From a virus, in the IMG/VR virus record IMGVR_UViG_3300017987_000120, positions 1 through 51,995 of that record: a stretch of DNA of 51,995 bases; one strand, given 5' to 3'. The notes under the pieces are model-generated. The model saw only the letters and a program-made list of their open reading frames with translations, was not told where the DNA came from and made no database searches. Shown piece by piece: positions 22,253 through 29,307 of this stretch. The translations under genes were made by a program, and so were the position numbers. The stretch's first letter is position 1; the number at the start of each line of letters is the position of its first letter.

Positions 22253-24421
22253 ATGGCCCACAGCAAACACACTCCGATGGCAAGCCCCGAGCTTCGGCAA
22301 GCAATGCTCACCGAGCTACCGCGCGTGCTCAATACCTCCGAAGAGCGCGTTGCCGACTTCTTGGCGACCCTCGATCCACAGCAGCCGCGTGCTTTGTTCG
22401 AGCCGCCATACAACCGCTTGGGGCAACTCTTCGTGCGCTTCGCAGCCGAGGACGAAGAGTCGGAGATGAGTCCACCACCACCAGTCGAGGGTGAGGACAT
22501 CGACGAGTTGCGTGAGGCGGATGAGCCAGAGGAAGACGAAGAGGAGGAAGACGACTTCGTCGAGGAAACCGAGACGGATCGGCATCCTGACGAGACCACC
22601 AAGGTCTTCGACGCCATCGACAAGCTCCGAGCCAAGGTGCGTGGCACCGACCGATCCCACTACGTGCGCATCGCTCCGGTGTTCCACAAGCTCGAGAAGA
22701 GCCTGCACCAGCTCGCCGAGCTGCTCAAGGACGCCCCGCATCCGAGGCCCAGCAAGATGCGCAGGGCCGAAGCGGTGCTGCGGAGAGCCTCGATCCCATG
22801 GCGCAACTGGTGGTTTGTGACCAAGCGAGGAGACCAGCCCTACTCTGGACCGGCTTGGAATAAGACCGGTATGACCCCCCAGTTTTTCAAGAGCAAGATC
22901 GCAGCCGAGAAGGCGGCAGCGGCACTCAAGAAGGTGAATCCAGTGGGATTCACCGTGAAGAAGATGCCCACTCAATACAAGCCAGGCAAGTATCCGCTGA
23001 TGGTCAACGCTCGAAGTGCCACCTTCAACGACCCGGTCGACCTGGAGCAGATCTCGCAGTTGTTGGAGTCATACGGGCTACCCAACATGAACATCCGAGG
23101 AGATGGCCCACACCCCCACGACAGCACTGGAGTGGCCTTCGTCTACTCGAAGAAGTCTGGCGAGCTGGCCAAGGCACAGCGCGTGCTCCAGCACGGCGGG
23201 TACCGGGTGAAGAAGGAGCGCGGTGAGCTTGTAGTCTCCTCGGTGATCGCCATGGATGACTCCGAAGGTGAGCGCCCGCAAGAGGACAACGAGAGCCTTG
23301 ACAAGCTGCAAGAAGAAATTCGATCCAGCATCGACAGTCTCCTCAACACCTTCAAGACCGAGATGGGACGCAAGCTAGTGATCGAGATTGACGCCGAATA
23401 CCGGCGGATGGCAGCCGGGCGCAAGGGAGCAAAAAGAAGCGCAAGGGCTCTTCTAGCCTCCGCTCCGTCGTCTCCCGAGCTGCCAACCTCGACTGATTCT
23501 ATCGACAACCTCTCAAACCACAGAACAAACCCCACTTGTACAAAGGCAGATACCATGAGCATCAAAGACGTTCTCCGTAGATACGCCCAAGGCGACGAAG
23601 GTGAGGAGGCAGCCCCCTCCGGTGGCGGCGGTCACCGCGGCCACGCCCCCTTCCACGACGAGTTCATCCAAGAGATGAAGTCGAAGGGCAAGCAGTTCAA
23701 GTCGCCGAAGACCGGCAACAAGATCATGTTCGGATCGCTGCCTTACGAGAAGCAGAAGGAAATCTACCATCGGTGGATGCACGGCTACATCGCCAAGCAC
23801 AAGTCGAACAGTCGCGCAAACCAGACAGGCGAGTCTGATCTGTACAACTTCGGCAAGGACCGTTGGCAGAAGCGCGGGCTTCGCACTGATCGAAGCTACG
23901 CACGTCACGAGGCTACATCCTCCCACGGGGATTACACCTACCACCCAGACCAGGGTACGTTGCACTTCGACTCCACCGACGATCGCGACCATCACGTCCA
24001 CAAGGGAATCACCGACGCTGACCATGCCCACGAGGTAGCTGCCAAGCACCACAGTGAGTTTGTAGAAGGCTTCCGTGAGCCGAGTATGTTCGCAGGCGAT
24101 TGGGACCACCCAAGAAAGTCGAAGGCGAAGGGCGGTGGCGGCGAAGACGACGGTTGGAGGCTACATGATGAGTGGGGACGTTACCGGCGAGACACCCACC
24201 ACGGTTCGTACACATACGAACCAGCAGCAGACGGAGCTGGAGGCTTCCTCTCCTACACCCCGAAGGGGGCAAAGACCGGCCCCGGGGGTAGAAAAAAGAG
24301 CGCGTTACTCAGCAAGGGCGACTTGGCCAAGGCCAAGCGTAAGGCACAAGAACACCATGAACAGCAACAGACTCGCCCTGCCAGCGGCAAGAGGAAGAAG
24401 GCAAAGACCAAGAAGCAGTAG
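22253..24421 (+). CDS. 722-codon open frame that probably joins two genes
   Basis: As read, one frame runs from ATG 22253 to 24421. Residues 1-390 contain an acidic disordered stretch (about 78-120) and an alpha/beta domain with NWWFVTKRGDQPY and a VVSSVIAMDD strand. Near 23430 the run GCAAAAAGAAG can be read in the -1 frame as SKKKRKGSSSLRSVV..., ending at TGA 23494-23496, which looks like the natural C-terminus of the first protein. In the zero frame the sequence between 23435 and 23553 codes for atypical residues and resembles an untranslated leader. I therefore infer two genes (about 22253-23496 and 23554-24421), separated by an indel or a frameshift site. Functions unknown; a head-associated role is likely from context. 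Confidence 0.6.
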   Translation: MAHSKHTPMASPELRQAMLTELPRVLNTSEERVADFLATLDPQQPRALFEPPYNRLGQLFVRFAAEDEESEMSPPPPVEGEDIDELREADEPEEDEEEEDDFVEETETDRHPDETTKVFDAIDKLRAKVRGTDRSHYVRIAPVFHKLEKSLHQLAELLKDAPHPRPSKMRRAEAVLRRASIPWRNWWFVTKRGDQPYSGPAWNKTGMTPQFFKSKIAAEKAAAALKKVNPVGFTVKKMPTQYKPGKYPLMVNARSATFNDPVDLEQISQLLESYGLPNMNIRGDGPHPHDSTGVAFVYSKKSGELAKAQRVLQHGGYRVKKERGELVVSSVIAMDDSEGERPQEDNESLDKLQEEIRSSIDSLLNTFKTEMGRKLVIEIDAEYRRMAAGRKGAKRSARALLASAPSSPELPTSTDSIDNLSNHRTNPTCTKADTMSIKDVLRRYAQGDEGEEAAPSGGGGHRGHAPFHDEFIQEMKSKGKQFKSPKTGNKIMFGSLPYEKQKEIYHRWMHGYIAKHKSNSRANQTGESDLYNFGKDRWQKRGLRTDRSYARHEATSSHGDYTYHPDQGTLHFDSTDDRDHHVHKGITDADHAHEVAAKHHSEFVEGFREPSMFAGDWDHPRKSKAKGGGGEDDGWRLHDEWGRYRRDTHHGSYTYEPAADGAGGFLSYTPKGAKTGPGGRKKSALLSKGDLAKAKRKAQEHHEQQQTRPASGKRKKAKTKKQ
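23554..24421 (+). CDS. probable separate gene with a targeting-like N-terminus, inside the longer frame
   Basis: From ATG 23554 the sequence encodes 288 residues beginning MSIKDVLRRYAQGDEG, a short amphipathic start like those at 10835 and 25329. It continues with a Gly/His linker and a basic module (KQFKSPKTGNKIMFGSLPYE and KQKEIYHRW) closely matching residues 31-60 of the 10835 protein. The rest alternates His-, Asp- and Tyr-rich beta segments (HGDYTYHP, HGSYTYEP) and ends in a Lys-rich tail. A CAAAGGCAG leader precedes the ATG. It is likely a DNA-associated or prohead-core protein; no enzyme motif was seen. Confidence 0.5.
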
Positions 24422-24477: not shown

Positions 24478-25329
24478 ATGAGCCGCATCATCCTCCCCTC
24501 CGGTCAGATCATGATCACTGGCCGAGCCCAGCCCACCCCGTGGGACATGGGACACATCATCGAGGGGCACCGTGCCGTCGCCGAGCTGCGTACTGCACGC
24601 GCCCTCGACGGGAGGCCGGTGCCCAAACTCATCCTCGCTACCAAGACCCCCGGCGGCGGCGTCGCTCGGCGCGAGATGGACATCAGCTTCCTCAAGGATG
24701 CCGCTGACGCCTACCAGATCAGCCCGGATCCGCGTGACTACGTCTTCGTGAGCTTGCCCATTGTCACCGCCGGGATTCCCAACCGGAACATGGACTGCTT
24801 TCGACACGCTGAGCTGACTCGGTTCAGCCCGATCCATGGGCGGCGCGTCTACCAGACCTTCAGAGGCAAGCCGACACACCAAAACCACAAGAACCAGGAC
24901 CCGACCAAGGCCAAGGGCATCCACTTCGACAGTACCTTCCGGAAATACAGTGTGCGTCCGGGGCAACTCGGCTATGACGCGCAGACCGAGCCGATGGAGC
25001 TGTGGAAGGTACGGATCCTCACCGGCTGGGACCGTACCAAGGACCCTGAGCTGGCACGCAGCATCCTCAAGCGCGAGCGCACTGGCTACTCCATGGGGGC
25101 GCTCATCGACTACGCGGTGTGCAGCCTGCCGTGGTGCCAGAAGGTCACCACCCCGACCCCGTGTGAGCACGTGGCAGCCGGCAAGGGGCGCGTGATCCGG
25201 GGCTACGTCTGCTACGACAACGTTTATGGTGTCAACTTCATCGAAACCAGTGTCCTCGACGAAGAGCCGGCCGATCCTGATGCTTGGGAGACTGAGGCAA
25301 TCTGGAGCGTCGGTACGGAGGCTGCCTGA
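24478..25329 (+). CDS. prohead maturation protease
   Basis: This is a 283-residue protein. It contains RRVYQTFRGKPTHQNHKN and a following KAKGIHFD (about residues 120-150), and later TGYSMGALIDYAV (about 202-214). This His...Ser layout is that of phage prohead serine proteases of the T4 gp21 and herpesvirus-assemblin type, with the likely catalytic His in THQNH and Ser in GYSMG. A Cys pair region (CSLPWC, then CEH) is present near 215-230. It should cleave scaffold and head proteins during maturation. The C-terminal codons (EAIWSVGTEAA) are repeated 1.2 kb downstream. The stop overlaps the next ATG. Confidence 0.8.
   Translation: MSRIILPSGQIMITGRAQPTPWDMGHIIEGHRAVAELRTARALDGRPVPKLILATKTPGGGVARREMDISFLKDAADAYQISPDPRDYVFVSLPIVTAGIPNRNMDCFRHAELTRFSPIHGRRVYQTFRGKPTHQNHKNQDPTKAKGIHFDSTFRKYSVRPGQLGYDAQTEPMELWKVRILTGWDRTKDPELARSILKRERTGYSMGALIDYAVCSLPWCQKVTTPTPCEHVAAGKGRVIRGYVCYDNVYGVNFIETSVLDEEPADPDAWETEAIWSVGTEAA
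25291..25329 (+). repeat. direct repeat copy A: protease C-terminal codons
   Basis: The last codons of the protease, T-E-AIWSVGTEAA-stop. The same peptide is encoded at 26540-26578 (T-K-AIWSVGTEAA-stop). The copies differ at five synonymous positions, one E/K change and the stop codon (TGA versus TAA). They bracket the 403-residue gene. Confidence 0.85.
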
Positions 25330-26540
25330 TGAATGCAATTGCTCAAACATTAGTGCGCCTAGCCAAGGTTCCCGAGTGGGCCAAGGGACGTAAGTTCCCG
25401 TACAAAGGGGACCAGCTAGCGTTCTCGACAATCGAGCGGCGTGACCCCGCAGCAGCACGCCGCATCCGTGAGCAACACCGCGCCGGCGTTGTGCCGGCGT
25501 ATCACATTTCACCAGTACGCAACTCACAAGAGTTACAGCAACGCGAGAAACTACACAAACTTCACCCGCGCAGTGTTTTGCACACCCAAGGGCAGTATGA
25601 AGACAATCTCGCCAGCAACCCGGAGATGGTCTACTTCTTCGGAGATATGCGCAGTCCGCCAGGGCACTTCGGACCAGAAGACGTACATTTAGATTCTCCG
25701 CTCTCTGTGGTGTTCTCTCCGGAAAACATCGACGAAACCAATCTGCACCCCGATGAAGATTCGCTACCCTACGTGCTGCCTATCGAACACGAGCACTTCA
25801 AAAAGGCGATTCAGCGCCTACGTGGCCGGAGGCATCGTGGTAAGGGCAAAGACAAGCAAGCCAAAGCTACGAAGGCAGAAGAACGGCGCGTACGGAGACC
25901 ATCCACAGCACAAGCACTAGACCCGAAGACCCGATTCCGACACCAAGAGGAAAACCAACACCTGTGGCGCGACTCGTTGGAGGCGCACAACACAGTAGCC
26001 CACAAAGGCTCAGTGCCTGTGTCCGTCGCAGGACACATACTTCGGCGTGAACACTACAACCACCTAAAAGATAAGCTCCACGGGGAAGCACAGCCGGTCG
26101 AAGAGCAGCACCACGGTAAGCGCACCCGCCGCCGCGAGTCGTCCTTGGTATTTCTTCCCCACCACCCCGAACACAGTGCTGTCTTCCACAGCGAAATCCT
26201 CAGTGGCAAAGCGGATAAGGAGATCAAGGAGCGCAAGCAGCAAGAACGGGAACAACGCCAAGCGCAGCAAGCGAAACACCAGAAGCACGCCAAAAAGCTC
26301 TCAAAGGATCTCGGTATCCAACTGCATTTCCGACGGGGGGAATTCACGGGGGATATTAGCCAGCAAGTACACCCCGGTGGCCGCGTCCTGAGTACCTCTG
26401 CGCATTTCACGCCAAACAGCGCTCGGCCATACAGCATTAGTACGGAACATCTAGGCAAACATGGTGAAATTCGCAGTCGCAGTCGGCGCTTCAAGAATCG
26501 CGACTCGTTTGTGGCAGCAGTGCGCGGGATGCAAGAGTGA
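25329..26540 (+). CDS. basic protein inserted between protease and scaffold genes
   Basis: The protein has 403 residues and starts on the TGATG overlap with the protease. It opens with MNAIAQTLVRLAKVPEW, a short amphipathic start, and KGRKFPYKGDQLAFSTI. It is then very basic and His/Gln/Arg-rich, with a long charged coil (about residues 295-325) of Lys/Glu/Arg/Gln. No nuclease or transposase motif was recognised. The codons are more A/T-rich than those of the protease and scaffold. Both ends are flanked by copies of the protease C-terminal coding sequence, which suggests that this gene was inserted or arose by a tandem duplication. A role as a DNA-binding head protein is possible. Confidence 0.55.
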   Translation: MNAIAQTLVRLAKVPEWAKGRKFPYKGDQLAFSTIERRDPAAARRIREQHRAGVVPAYHISPVRNSQELQQREKLHKLHPRSVLHTQGQYEDNLASNPEMVYFFGDMRSPPGHFGPEDVHLDSPLSVVFSPENIDETNLHPDEDSLPYVLPIEHEHFKKAIQRLRGRRHRGKGKDKQAKATKAEERRVRRPSTAQALDPKTRFRHQEENQHLWRDSLEAHNTVAHKGSVPVSVAGHILRREHYNHLKDKLHGEAQPVEEQHHGKRTRRRESSLVFLPHHPEHSAVFHSEILSGKADKEIKERKQQEREQRQAQQAKHQKHAKKLSKDLGIQLHFRRGEFTGDISQQVHPGGRVLSTSAHFTPNSARPYSISTEHLGKHGEIRSRSRRFKNRDSFVAAVRGMQE

Positions 26541-26578
26541 CTAAGGCAATCTGGAGCGTCGGCACGGAAGCCGCATAA
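26540..26578 (+). repeat. direct repeat copy B: orphan protease C-terminus
   Basis: Second copy of the AIWSVGTEAA coding end. It is in frame with a GTG at 26537 that overlaps the stop of the preceding gene (GTGA), giving a 13-codon mini-frame ending directly before the GTG start at 26579. It may be a relic, or a short coupling peptide between the two genes. Confidence 0.8.
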
Positions 26579-26845
26579 GTGGCTGACCGAACGGCTTTTA
26601 TCCAAGAACACTTGCGGGTATGGTTGGTTTTCCGTCCCGGGCTTCCCGGTCAGAAGATCATTACTACCTCGGAGTTGACAGCCACCCACGCTTATGCCGC
26701 CATCACTGGCGGCAGCGATGTTGGTTTGGTTGCGGTTCAGCTAGATGAGCCGATACCTGACGCCGTTGTTGACGCCGTGTCTATTATCGCGGAGTCTTTG
26801 GACGAAGACGAAGACATCGCGTTGGAATACGAAGAAACTGCGTAA
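26579..26845 (+). CDS. small acidic protein, unknown
   Basis: The protein has 88 residues and a GTG start immediately after the repeat-copy stop, so it depends on translational coupling. It shows alternating strands and helices and a strongly acidic C-terminus (SLDEDEDIALEYEETA). It lies upstream of a hairpin and the scaffold gene. No family was recognised. The size and charge would suit a small prohead-core component, but that is inference from position only. Confidence 0.5.
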   Translation: MADRTAFIQEHLRVWLVFRPGLPGQKIITTSELTATHAYAAITGGSDVGLVAVQLDEPIPDAVVDAVSIIAESLDEDEDIALEYEETA

Positions 26846-26883: not shown

Positions 26884-26934
26884 CAATCTCTCCGGCCCCT
26901 CGGGAGCATCCCGAGGCCATGCACTCAATCTCTC
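26884..26934 (+). promoter_or_regulatory. hairpin flanked by two CAATCTCTC motifs
   Basis: An 8-bp perfect stem (CCTCGGGA / TCCCGAGG, 26898-26916) with a 3-base loop lies between CAATCTCTC at 26884-26892 and 26926-26934. No U-tract follows. It could terminate, protect or process the mRNA ahead of the scaffold gene. The motif recurs before other head genes. Confidence 0.5.
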
Positions 26935-26997: not shown

Positions 26998-29307
26998 ATG
27001 GCGAAGAGCAAGAACAAGGACCTCCGGCGCCTACGCGAAGAGCAGTTGGCAGCCGCCAACCGCCGTACCGCCGCTGACGACGGTGTTCATGACGACGCCG
27101 TCGACGCCGAGGGCTATGACGAGGGCTATGACGAGGGAACCAAGGGCGGTCCCGTCGACGAAGAAGAGCTGGACCTCGATGCCTTCGACCTCGACGACCT
27201 GGGTGACGAAGACGACGACAGCGATGCTGGCGATCTCACCATCACCCACGAAGATGACGAAGACGATGACGCCGACGCCGGTGACCTCACCATCACCCAC
27301 GAGGACGATGACGAGGATGATGAGACGGATGCTGGCGATCTCACCATCACCCACGAGGACGATGACGAGGATGATGAGACGGATGCTGGCGATCTCACCA
27401 TCACCCACGAGGACGATGACGAGGAAGACGACACCGAAGCCTGGGTCGAAGAGAACGTCGTCTCGGGTATGGTCGAAGCCGCCCTGCTCGGTGAGAACAC
27501 CCACAGCCGCAAGGCCATGGTACGGGCGCTCAGCGAGCGCGGATTCGAAGCCGGTGCCGCACTGGTCAGCTCGCTCTCGAAGCGACACTACGGCCGTCTC
27601 GCCATGATCCTCGACAATCTGGTTGAGGCCAGTCGTGAGGTTCTCGCGGAGGTCCGCGCGGCCGAGGCACGCTGCGCCACCATCACCGAGAAGCTCCGCG
27701 ACGAGGGCAAGGAGCGCGAGGCGCAGCAGGTCGAGCAGAACTACCGCGAGGCCATGAGCGCCGATCTGGAGGAGAGCGACCTCTCCTTCGAGTGTCCCGG
27801 ATGGCTGACAGCAGCGGCCGAAGACTTCCTCGGCGACCAGGACGATGACGAGGATGATGAGACGGATGCTGGCGATCTCACCATCACCCACGAGGACGAT
27901 GACGAGGAAGACGACACCGAAGCCAGCCCCGACGAGCTGGTGGCCCAGGCAGTCTACGCTGCGGTCAAGGCCAAGAAGTCCAAGAAGGCGGCCCGAATCA
28001 TCGCCGGGGTGATCAACGAGGACAGCATCGAGGCCGCGCGGGTCTGTGCGCGCCTGGTACACCAGGGGCGGATCGAGATGGCTGCCGAGATGGCTGCCGA
28101 GATCCGTCAAGCGGCCTACAACGTCGACCCCGACGTGAAGCCGGTGCAGGTCGACCCGAGCCAGCCGGTGACCCCTGGCGCACCCAACCGCATGATGGGG
28201 CCGCCGCCCGACGCCGGCTTCTCCTATGGAGGCAGCATGGACGAGAAGCAGCTCAAGCAGGCATGTGACACCCTGGCCTGTGGTCCCGAGGCGATGGCCT
28301 GGGTCAAGCAAGCCCCGATGACCGACGACGGCCAGATCGACCCCACCGGCAAGTGGGCCTGCTACACCGAGGGTGCCGGCCAGGGCCCGGCAGAGGAGAT
28401 GGACACCGAAGCGTGCAAGGCGTACCTCGCCAAGCGTGCGTCCACGGTACACGCGATGTTGCTAGCCAACATCGCCAACCTCGACGGCGAGGACGTGCCC
28501 AAGGACTCCGTGGCCATGACGCTGCACGACGCCACGAGCGACAGCCCATTCTGGAACGTGATCATCGGCGGCGTCCCCGTCGGCACGATCCACCTCCAGG
28601 ACCAGGAGCGTCCCGAGCAGATCCGCGCGATGTTCGTCTCGGACACCTACCGCGAGGGCATCCGAGACAGCATCGCCACCTTCGGGTCCTCGCAGACCCT
28701 CGAACGGGTGGCAGCGCGCTACTGGGCGGCAGCCTTCAACGAGGCCGAGGCAGTGACCCACGCCCGAGACGCCATCAGCGCCGAGGCCGAGAAGGTCCTC
28801 GAAGAGCGCGTGGCGGTGGTCGTCGGCGACAAGATGGCGCTGATGGCACTGGCCCACGAGGCGTTCCAGCGCAACCTGGTGGAGCAGGACAACCCGCTGA
28901 AGTGGGCGCTGACCGAGCGCCTGGCAGCCGCAGGGATCGCCGACCCGGCCCTGGTCGCCGAGGAGGCGCTGTCCTACCAGATCCAGGCGGGGGTGGACAA
29001 CAACGGCGATCCGGTCTTCATGCCGGCGTCGACCATGTACCTCCAGGCGCTCTACGCCCAGGCCGAAGAGTACAGCAAGCTGCACCCCGAGGCCCTGGAG
29101 CAAGTCTCGATGCACATCCTCCAGACGCCAGTGAAGCTGCGGCAGGCCGCAGTGGATCCCAGGGCGGGCCAGTCCCTCCGTGAGCGTCTGGCCTCGGCCA
29201 ACGTTCCGGTGATGTCGGTCCCGACAGCCCAGGGCGACACAGAGGAGCGTCCGACGTCCAAGAACGAGCTGCGAGCTGCGCTGCGCATCGGCAACCGCTG
29301 GCGGTAG
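26998..29307 (+). CDS. acidic repeat protein, probable prohead scaffold/core protein
   Basis: The protein has 769 residues. Residues 60-150 are extremely acidic and contain tandem copies of DAGDLTITHEDDDEDDET; another copy lies near residue 285. Between and after these are helical domains (for example AALLGENTHSRKAMVRAL and AVKAKKSKKAARIIAGVI, each near an acidic repeat). The C-terminal 350 residues are helical and contain CGPEAMAWVKQAPMT and TPVKLRQAAV. Position between protease and capsid genes, size, acidity and GC-rich, highly expressed-type codons suggest a scaffold or core protein later cut by the protease. ATG 26998 has GGAGAAG upstream; the frame extends upstream to 26935 with an implausible Cys-rich start. 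Confidence 0.6.
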   Translation: MAKSKNKDLRRLREEQLAAANRRTAADDGVHDDAVDAEGYDEGYDEGTKGGPVDEEELDLDAFDLDDLGDEDDDSDAGDLTITHEDDEDDDADAGDLTITHEDDDEDDETDAGDLTITHEDDDEDDETDAGDLTITHEDDDEEDDTEAWVEENVVSGMVEAALLGENTHSRKAMVRALSERGFEAGAALVSSLSKRHYGRLAMILDNLVEASREVLAEVRAAEARCATITEKLRDEGKEREAQQVEQNYREAMSADLEESDLSFECPGWLTAAAEDFLGDQDDDEDDETDAGDLTITHEDDDEEDDTEASPDELVAQAVYAAVKAKKSKKAARIIAGVINEDSIEAARVCARLVHQGRIEMAAEMAAEIRQAAYNVDPDVKPVQVDPSQPVTPGAPNRMMGPPPDAGFSYGGSMDEKQLKQACDTLACGPEAMAWVKQAPMTDDGQIDPTGKWACYTEGAGQGPAEEMDTEACKAYLAKRASTVHAMLLANIANLDGEDVPKDSVAMTLHDATSDSPFWNVIIGGVPVGTIHLQDQERPEQIRAMFVSDTYREGIRDSIATFGSSQTLERVAARYWAAAFNEAEAVTHARDAISAEAEKVLEERVAVVVGDKMALMALAHEAFQRNLVEQDNPLKWALTERLAAAGIADPALVAEEALSYQIQAGVDNNGDPVFMPASTMYLQALYAQAEEYSKLHPEALEQVSMHILQTPVKLRQAAVDPRAGQSLRERLASANVPVMSVPTAQGDTEERPTSKNELRAALRIGNRWR
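27222..27441 (+). repeat. tandem 54-bp coding repeats
   Basis: About four consecutive units encode DAGDLTITHEDDDEDDET (18 residues). Units at 27328-27381 and 27382-27435 are nearly identical, and two earlier units are diverged. The last 84 bases (27358-27441) reappear exactly at 27841-27924. The repeats are in frame and not spacer-separated, so this is not a CRISPR array. Confidence 0.9.
27841..27924 (+). repeat. distant exact 84-bp copy of the acidic repeat
   Basis: Identical over 84 bases to 27358-27441 and in the same frame. Separation is about 480 bases. The identity implies a recent duplication or gene conversion and makes this locus prone to deletion. Confidence 0.9.

Follow-up and report, generated by a model that had tools for sequence, protein, structure and literature searches.

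The question raised by this locus is why the coding end of a head-maturation protease gene is present twice, once in the gene itself and once behind the gene that follows it, and what kind of event left the two versions in tandem. The window, meaning the whole stretch of DNA analysed, is the 51,995-base virus record IMG/VR IMGVR_UViG_3300017987_000120, which belongs to an uncultured large phage; the locus lies in its head-gene cluster and comprises the following features.

24478..25329, + strand: head-maturation (prohead) protease gene, 283 aa (PHROG 18299, head maturation protease, E 1.3e-41)
25291..25329, + strand: copy A, the last 12 sense codons and the stop of the protease gene (TEAIWSVGTEAA-stop)
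25329..26540, + strand: p403, the putatively inserted gene, 403 aa, whose start overlaps the protease stop (TGATG)
26537..26578, + strand: 13-codon GTG frame (VTKAIWSVGTEAA) read through copy B, a possible termination-reinitiation bridge judged from its sequence
26540..26578, + strand: copy B, a second version of the protease 3' end, detached from any protease gene
26579..26845, + strand: p88, an 88-aa ORF and second occupant of the slot, whose GTG abuts the copy B stop
26998..29307, + strand: scaffold-like head gene, the right edge of the variable slot

Copy A reads ACT GAG GCA ATC TGG AGC GTC GGT ACG GAG GCT GCC TGA and copy B reads ACT AAG GCA ATC TGG AGC GTC GGC ACG GAA GCC GCA TAA. The two are identical at 33 of 39 bases. 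Five of the differences fall in sense codons (4 synonymous and 1 E/K), the sixth being TGA versus TAA, and over the last ten sense codons the changes are silent only. The statement of the first-pass annotation that the codons for AIWSVGTEAA-stop recur after the 403-residue gene is thus borne out. A 19-base exact core was found at only two sites in the window, which are copies A and B, and an 18-base pattern allowing up to 3 mismatches gave two matches in none of the window shuffles. When protease tails were compared with downstream DNA over 92 loci, the window scored 27, a value that none of 6000 cross-locus comparisons attained. Similarly, when gene-start regions were paired within 96 loci, the window pair came second out of 307,121, and the sole pair ranked above it looks like paralogous genes. 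On the 3' side the similarity breaks off at the stop codon itself, with no relationship in the 36 bases beyond it, and on the 5' side it reaches at most about 12 bases further before it is lost. From these limits we deduced that the repeated unit is the protease coding end. The exact repeat pattern was also sought in viral contigs, with no match.

By its profile match and its conserved core residues, found intact in an alignment with 10 phage proteases (25 invariant columns), the upstream gene is a Caudoviricetes head-maturation protease. A protease profile search of IMG/VR retrieved 220 relatives, 80 of which were kept, with a best identity of 49%; single-query searches with the protease, p403, p88 and the major-capsid-like protein recovered no close relative. 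The protease ends of the relatives resemble that of the window (SDRIWGI, TDYIWNVG-stop, SENIWGVG-stop), and tails of the [ST][DE]xIW(G/N) type were found in L021, L023, L024, L026 and others. Because several relatives end in such tails, copy A was assigned as the native protease end. The tail matches of L004 and L027 (scores 13.5 and 12.5) were rejected as chance-level. Copy B is carried by no relative examined, and we rejected the reading of it as part of an unrelated conserved gene. On the other side of the protease, a 722-aa gene without detectable relatives lies between portal and protease (window 22253-24421); in L017, L018 and L020 the portal is directly followed by the protease.

The gene enclosed by the two copies is an orphan. 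No relative of p403 was found by sequence in phages, IMG/VR, GTDB contigs, Pfam, PHROGs, NCBIfam or PADLOC, its comparison with the PDB gave no significant match, and p88 had no relative in any search. The two genes also have the two lowest GC3 values among the 33 window genes compared (0.60 for p403 and 0.57, the lowest, for p88), versus 0.81 for the protease and 0.84 for the scaffold-like gene. The predicted model of p403 has a mean pLDDT of 50 and is confident only at residues ~290-403. This C-terminal domain gave no significant fold match, the best VIA-align Z of 6.8 lying below the meaningful level; weak structure matches of p403, including MotA and WGR domains, were left uninterpreted. 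The AF2 model of p88 (pLDDT 49) is uninformative. A search of p403 for nuclease motifs (HNH, GIY-YIG, PD-(D/E)XK), made with a single sequence and a poor model, gave no family match. We also considered an ADP-ribosyltransferase-like protein on account of a YHISP stretch, which received no support at E-values up to 10, and a relationship to the neighbouring 722-aa protein, for which the comparison was negative. Mobile nuclease, head protein and neutral cargo all remain candidate roles for p403.

The gene on the right edge of the slot owes the name scaffold to its position, and over its C-terminal part it matches the ORF found at the slot border of the relatives. It contains 54-base tandem repeats (window 27216-27990) encoding an acidic DAGDLTITHEDDDE-type motif. 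Between p88 and this gene lies a GC-rich hairpin, CCTCGGGAGCATCCCGAGG (window 26897-26917), a candidate terminator or processing site.

Among the relatives, the interval between protease and scaffold is empty in L017, L036 and L042 and holds 1 to 5 ORFs in L018, L020, L025, L033, L034, L037, L038, L040, L046 and L057, none of which encodes a relative of p403 or p88. The protease-scaffold interval is thus variable, and has the look of a cargo slot for acquired genes. The comparison with relatives lacking the 403-residue gene, proposed in the first-pass annotation, did therefore reveal empty slots, but all of them in phages distant from the window phage (protease identity at most 49%). In Erwinia phage SNUABM_5 (L006:6645-7724), a gene annotated 'peptidase family M34' occupies the same slot after the protease.

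Repeated boundaries were found in two further loci. In L068 (5743-6956), the protease end together with the start region recurs (19/20 bases) ahead of a further ORF, at a distance of 0.75 kb downstream, and the right-hand boundary of the stretch carries exact repeats of 27 and 33 bases; two alternative slot fillings in tandem would give this repeat picture. In L050 (5610-7265), a 551-aa ORF located directly after the protease, between CATTTGCATTTAGGAGATTAAATG and CATCTGCATTTAGGAGGTTGAATG, is flanked by a repeat of 21/24 bases including the ATG, the boundary being repeated behind the ORF. The latter matches DUF723 and DUF4379 (treble-clef zinc finger) and, weakly, MTES_1575 (REase domain, 24.2 bits, below the Pfam curated cut-off of 38.2), and is a candidate homing endonuclease on the basis of such domain matches. 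Start-codon-anchored repeat pairs such as those of L050 and L068 have a cross-locus P of ~1e-4 or less; unanchored, the L050 pair has a P of 0.005 over 92 loci and is not significant. We disregarded the high-scoring start pairs of L033, L067 and L044, which, judged by eye, are probably coding sequence of a paralogous or repetitive kind. A search for close relatives of the L050 and L068 phages in which the slot is empty found none.

We propose that p403 was probably acquired through recombination at the 3' boundary of the protease gene, or brought next to p88 in this way; two versions of that boundary now stand in tandem. By the simplest route, copies A and B would each have served as the protease end in one of two related phages, and diverged there, p403 following the protease in one phage and p88 in the other. 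A crossover would then have linked the 3' end of p403 to the sequence of the other phage, at a position shortly before its protease tail. In the present arrangement, copy A is the working protease end, followed by p403 with its TGATG start and strong Shine-Dalgarno, while copy B represents this end a second time, with p88 directly behind it (TAA GTG). Such a two-allele origin would account for the silent differences, the different stops, the unrelated sequence after each stop and the intact protease. The donor arrangement (protease then p88 directly, or p403 alone) was not seen among the relatives examined. As no close relative was found, there is no direct before/after pair at the window locus, and we infer both the direction of the event, gain as against loss, and the two-allele origin. 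Insertion accompanied by a repeated protease end, one of the two origins put forward in the first-pass annotation, is supported by the empty and filled slots, by the orphan, low-GC3 p403 and by the cases of L068, L050 and Island3 (discussed below).

The other origin put forward there is the nearest alternative, namely a local tandem duplication with subsequent drift or replacement of a gene. The protease 3' region would have been duplicated in tandem and its middle later replaced by p403 or decayed into it. Duplication easily produces direct repeats, and L068 has repeats at both boundaries of its slot, but p403 retains no trace of the protease: the profile comparison gave a probability of 0.2%, and at a fixed offset the DNA reached at most 35% identity in 60 bases, which led us to reject p403 as a decayed protease copy. 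We consider this origin possible but unlikely. That p403 is instead a mobile gene of the homing type, inserting at protease 3' ends, would agree with the presence at the same place in L050 of an unrelated ORF with weak MTES_1575 and zinc-finger matches, and with the preference of free-standing homing endonucleases for intergenic sites (PMC2988022). We regard it as quite unlikely in view of p403 itself, in whose single sequence and poor model neither a nuclease motif nor a family match was detected, and whose confident C-terminal domain gave no significant fold match.

The source is a metagenome-derived virus contig. Two strain variants of the protease-scaffold interval could conceivably have been merged in one metagenome contig: copies A and B do look like two strain alleles, and the record comes from IMG/VR and not from an isolate. 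Such an artefact seems improbable, since the reading frames on either side are intact and similar structures turn up in L050 and L068, which are independent contigs, as well as in the genome record of Island3.

Beside its proposed origin by recombination, copy B might be under selection today as a working element, providing the translation start region of p88 and, through the 13-codon frame, handing ribosomes on from p403 to p88 by termination-reinitiation. Such a present-day role is compatible with the recombinational origin; we retain it as a tentative possibility. Copy A clearly doubles as a start region, for it also holds the Shine-Dalgarno of p403, TACGGAGGC, whose duplex energy of -9.5 kcal/mol is the best of the 20 gene starts examined. 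In copy B, the frame GTG ACT AAG ... GCA TAA begins with a GTG that overlaps the p403 stop (GTGA) and ends with a TAA directly before the p88 GTG at 26579, and its last ten sense codons differ from those of copy A silently only. The coupling to both neighbours asserted in the first-pass annotation therefore holds as far as an open and suitably positioned frame is concerned, but the Shine-Dalgarno is weak. The energy is -3.5 kcal/mol for copy B and -4.1 kcal/mol for the 13-codon frame, close to the random median of -3.0, and p88 without copy B has -4.1, similar to the value with copy B. The calculation thus gave no support to a strong retention of copy B as the ribosome site of p88.

The same annotation saw in the silent changes a hint that copy B is, or was, translated. 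Random changes leave at most one amino-acid change in ~2% of trials (P ~0.02), but the hint is weak, copy A being under selection as part of the protease and copy B being perhaps the protease end of a sister phage. Since both may have diverged as protease ends, the excess of silent changes needs no present translation of copy B. It could also be imagined that the slot behind the head protease of large phages is a hot spot for incoming genes, each bringing along a protease end of its own, with copy B surviving as a coupling cistron between p403 and p88. This combination appears unlikely; if true, the protease and the next gene would both keep working ends and starts.

With a doubled boundary, the end of the upstream gene is preserved, and so is a sequence ahead of the start of the downstream gene. 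Gene addition inside essential phage operons would thereby proceed without breakage and leave a readable footprint. With candidate cases at one locus in the window phage, L050 and L068, the protease-scaffold interval may lend itself to the study of the mechanism.

Several known systems can be compared with this locus. Free-standing homing endonuclease insertions (PMC2988022, PMC3706429) likewise represent a gene gain precisely between two structural genes. L050 is similar to them, with a nuclease-like ORF in the same slot and a duplicated boundary, whereas no endonuclease signature was detected in p403. The start-associated sequences of Cluster K mycobacteriophages (PMC3203893) likewise lie just upstream of starts, with a Shine-Dalgarno. 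They are dispersed elements found before many starts, unlike the window repeat, which has two copies only in 52 kb and is protease coding sequence. Elsewhere in our set, L008 (9364-10443) has a near-identical 20-base element (CCCAAGAGGAATGCACCATG and variants) ahead of three adjacent genes that are mutually dissimilar by BLASTP, and this element resembles start-associated sequences. In the lambdoid boundary sequences (Susskind and Botstein; Clark et al.), as they are cited in PMC3029335, a short sequence common to gene boundaries is the place of exchange; compared with that account, the sequence common to the two boundaries of the window belongs to the upstream gene, whose coding region it terminates, and is not a separate conserved linker.

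A precedent exists in mycobacteriophage Island3, in which the orphan gene 68 follows gene 67, the 3' ends being common to both, and the related phage Brujita has a single copy (Pope et al. 2011, PMC3029335). Recombination between the ~50-bp sequences, in either direction, was proposed by these authors. We re-found the Island3 repeat, which is longer and less diverged (53/58 bases) than the window repeat. As at the window locus, where the upstream 3' end recurs at the DNA level (33/39 bases) behind an extra gene without homologues, the Island3 insert is an orphan with the upstream 3' end repeated behind it, and gene 68 starts at a TGATG overlap like p403. The two cases differ in that the second Island3 copy is fused in frame to the end of the inserted gene, whereas copy B is not part of p403: it stands in a different frame and immediately precedes p88. 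Judged by this same anatomy, the type of mechanism would already be known from the Island3/Brujita precedent, to which the window phage adds another case.
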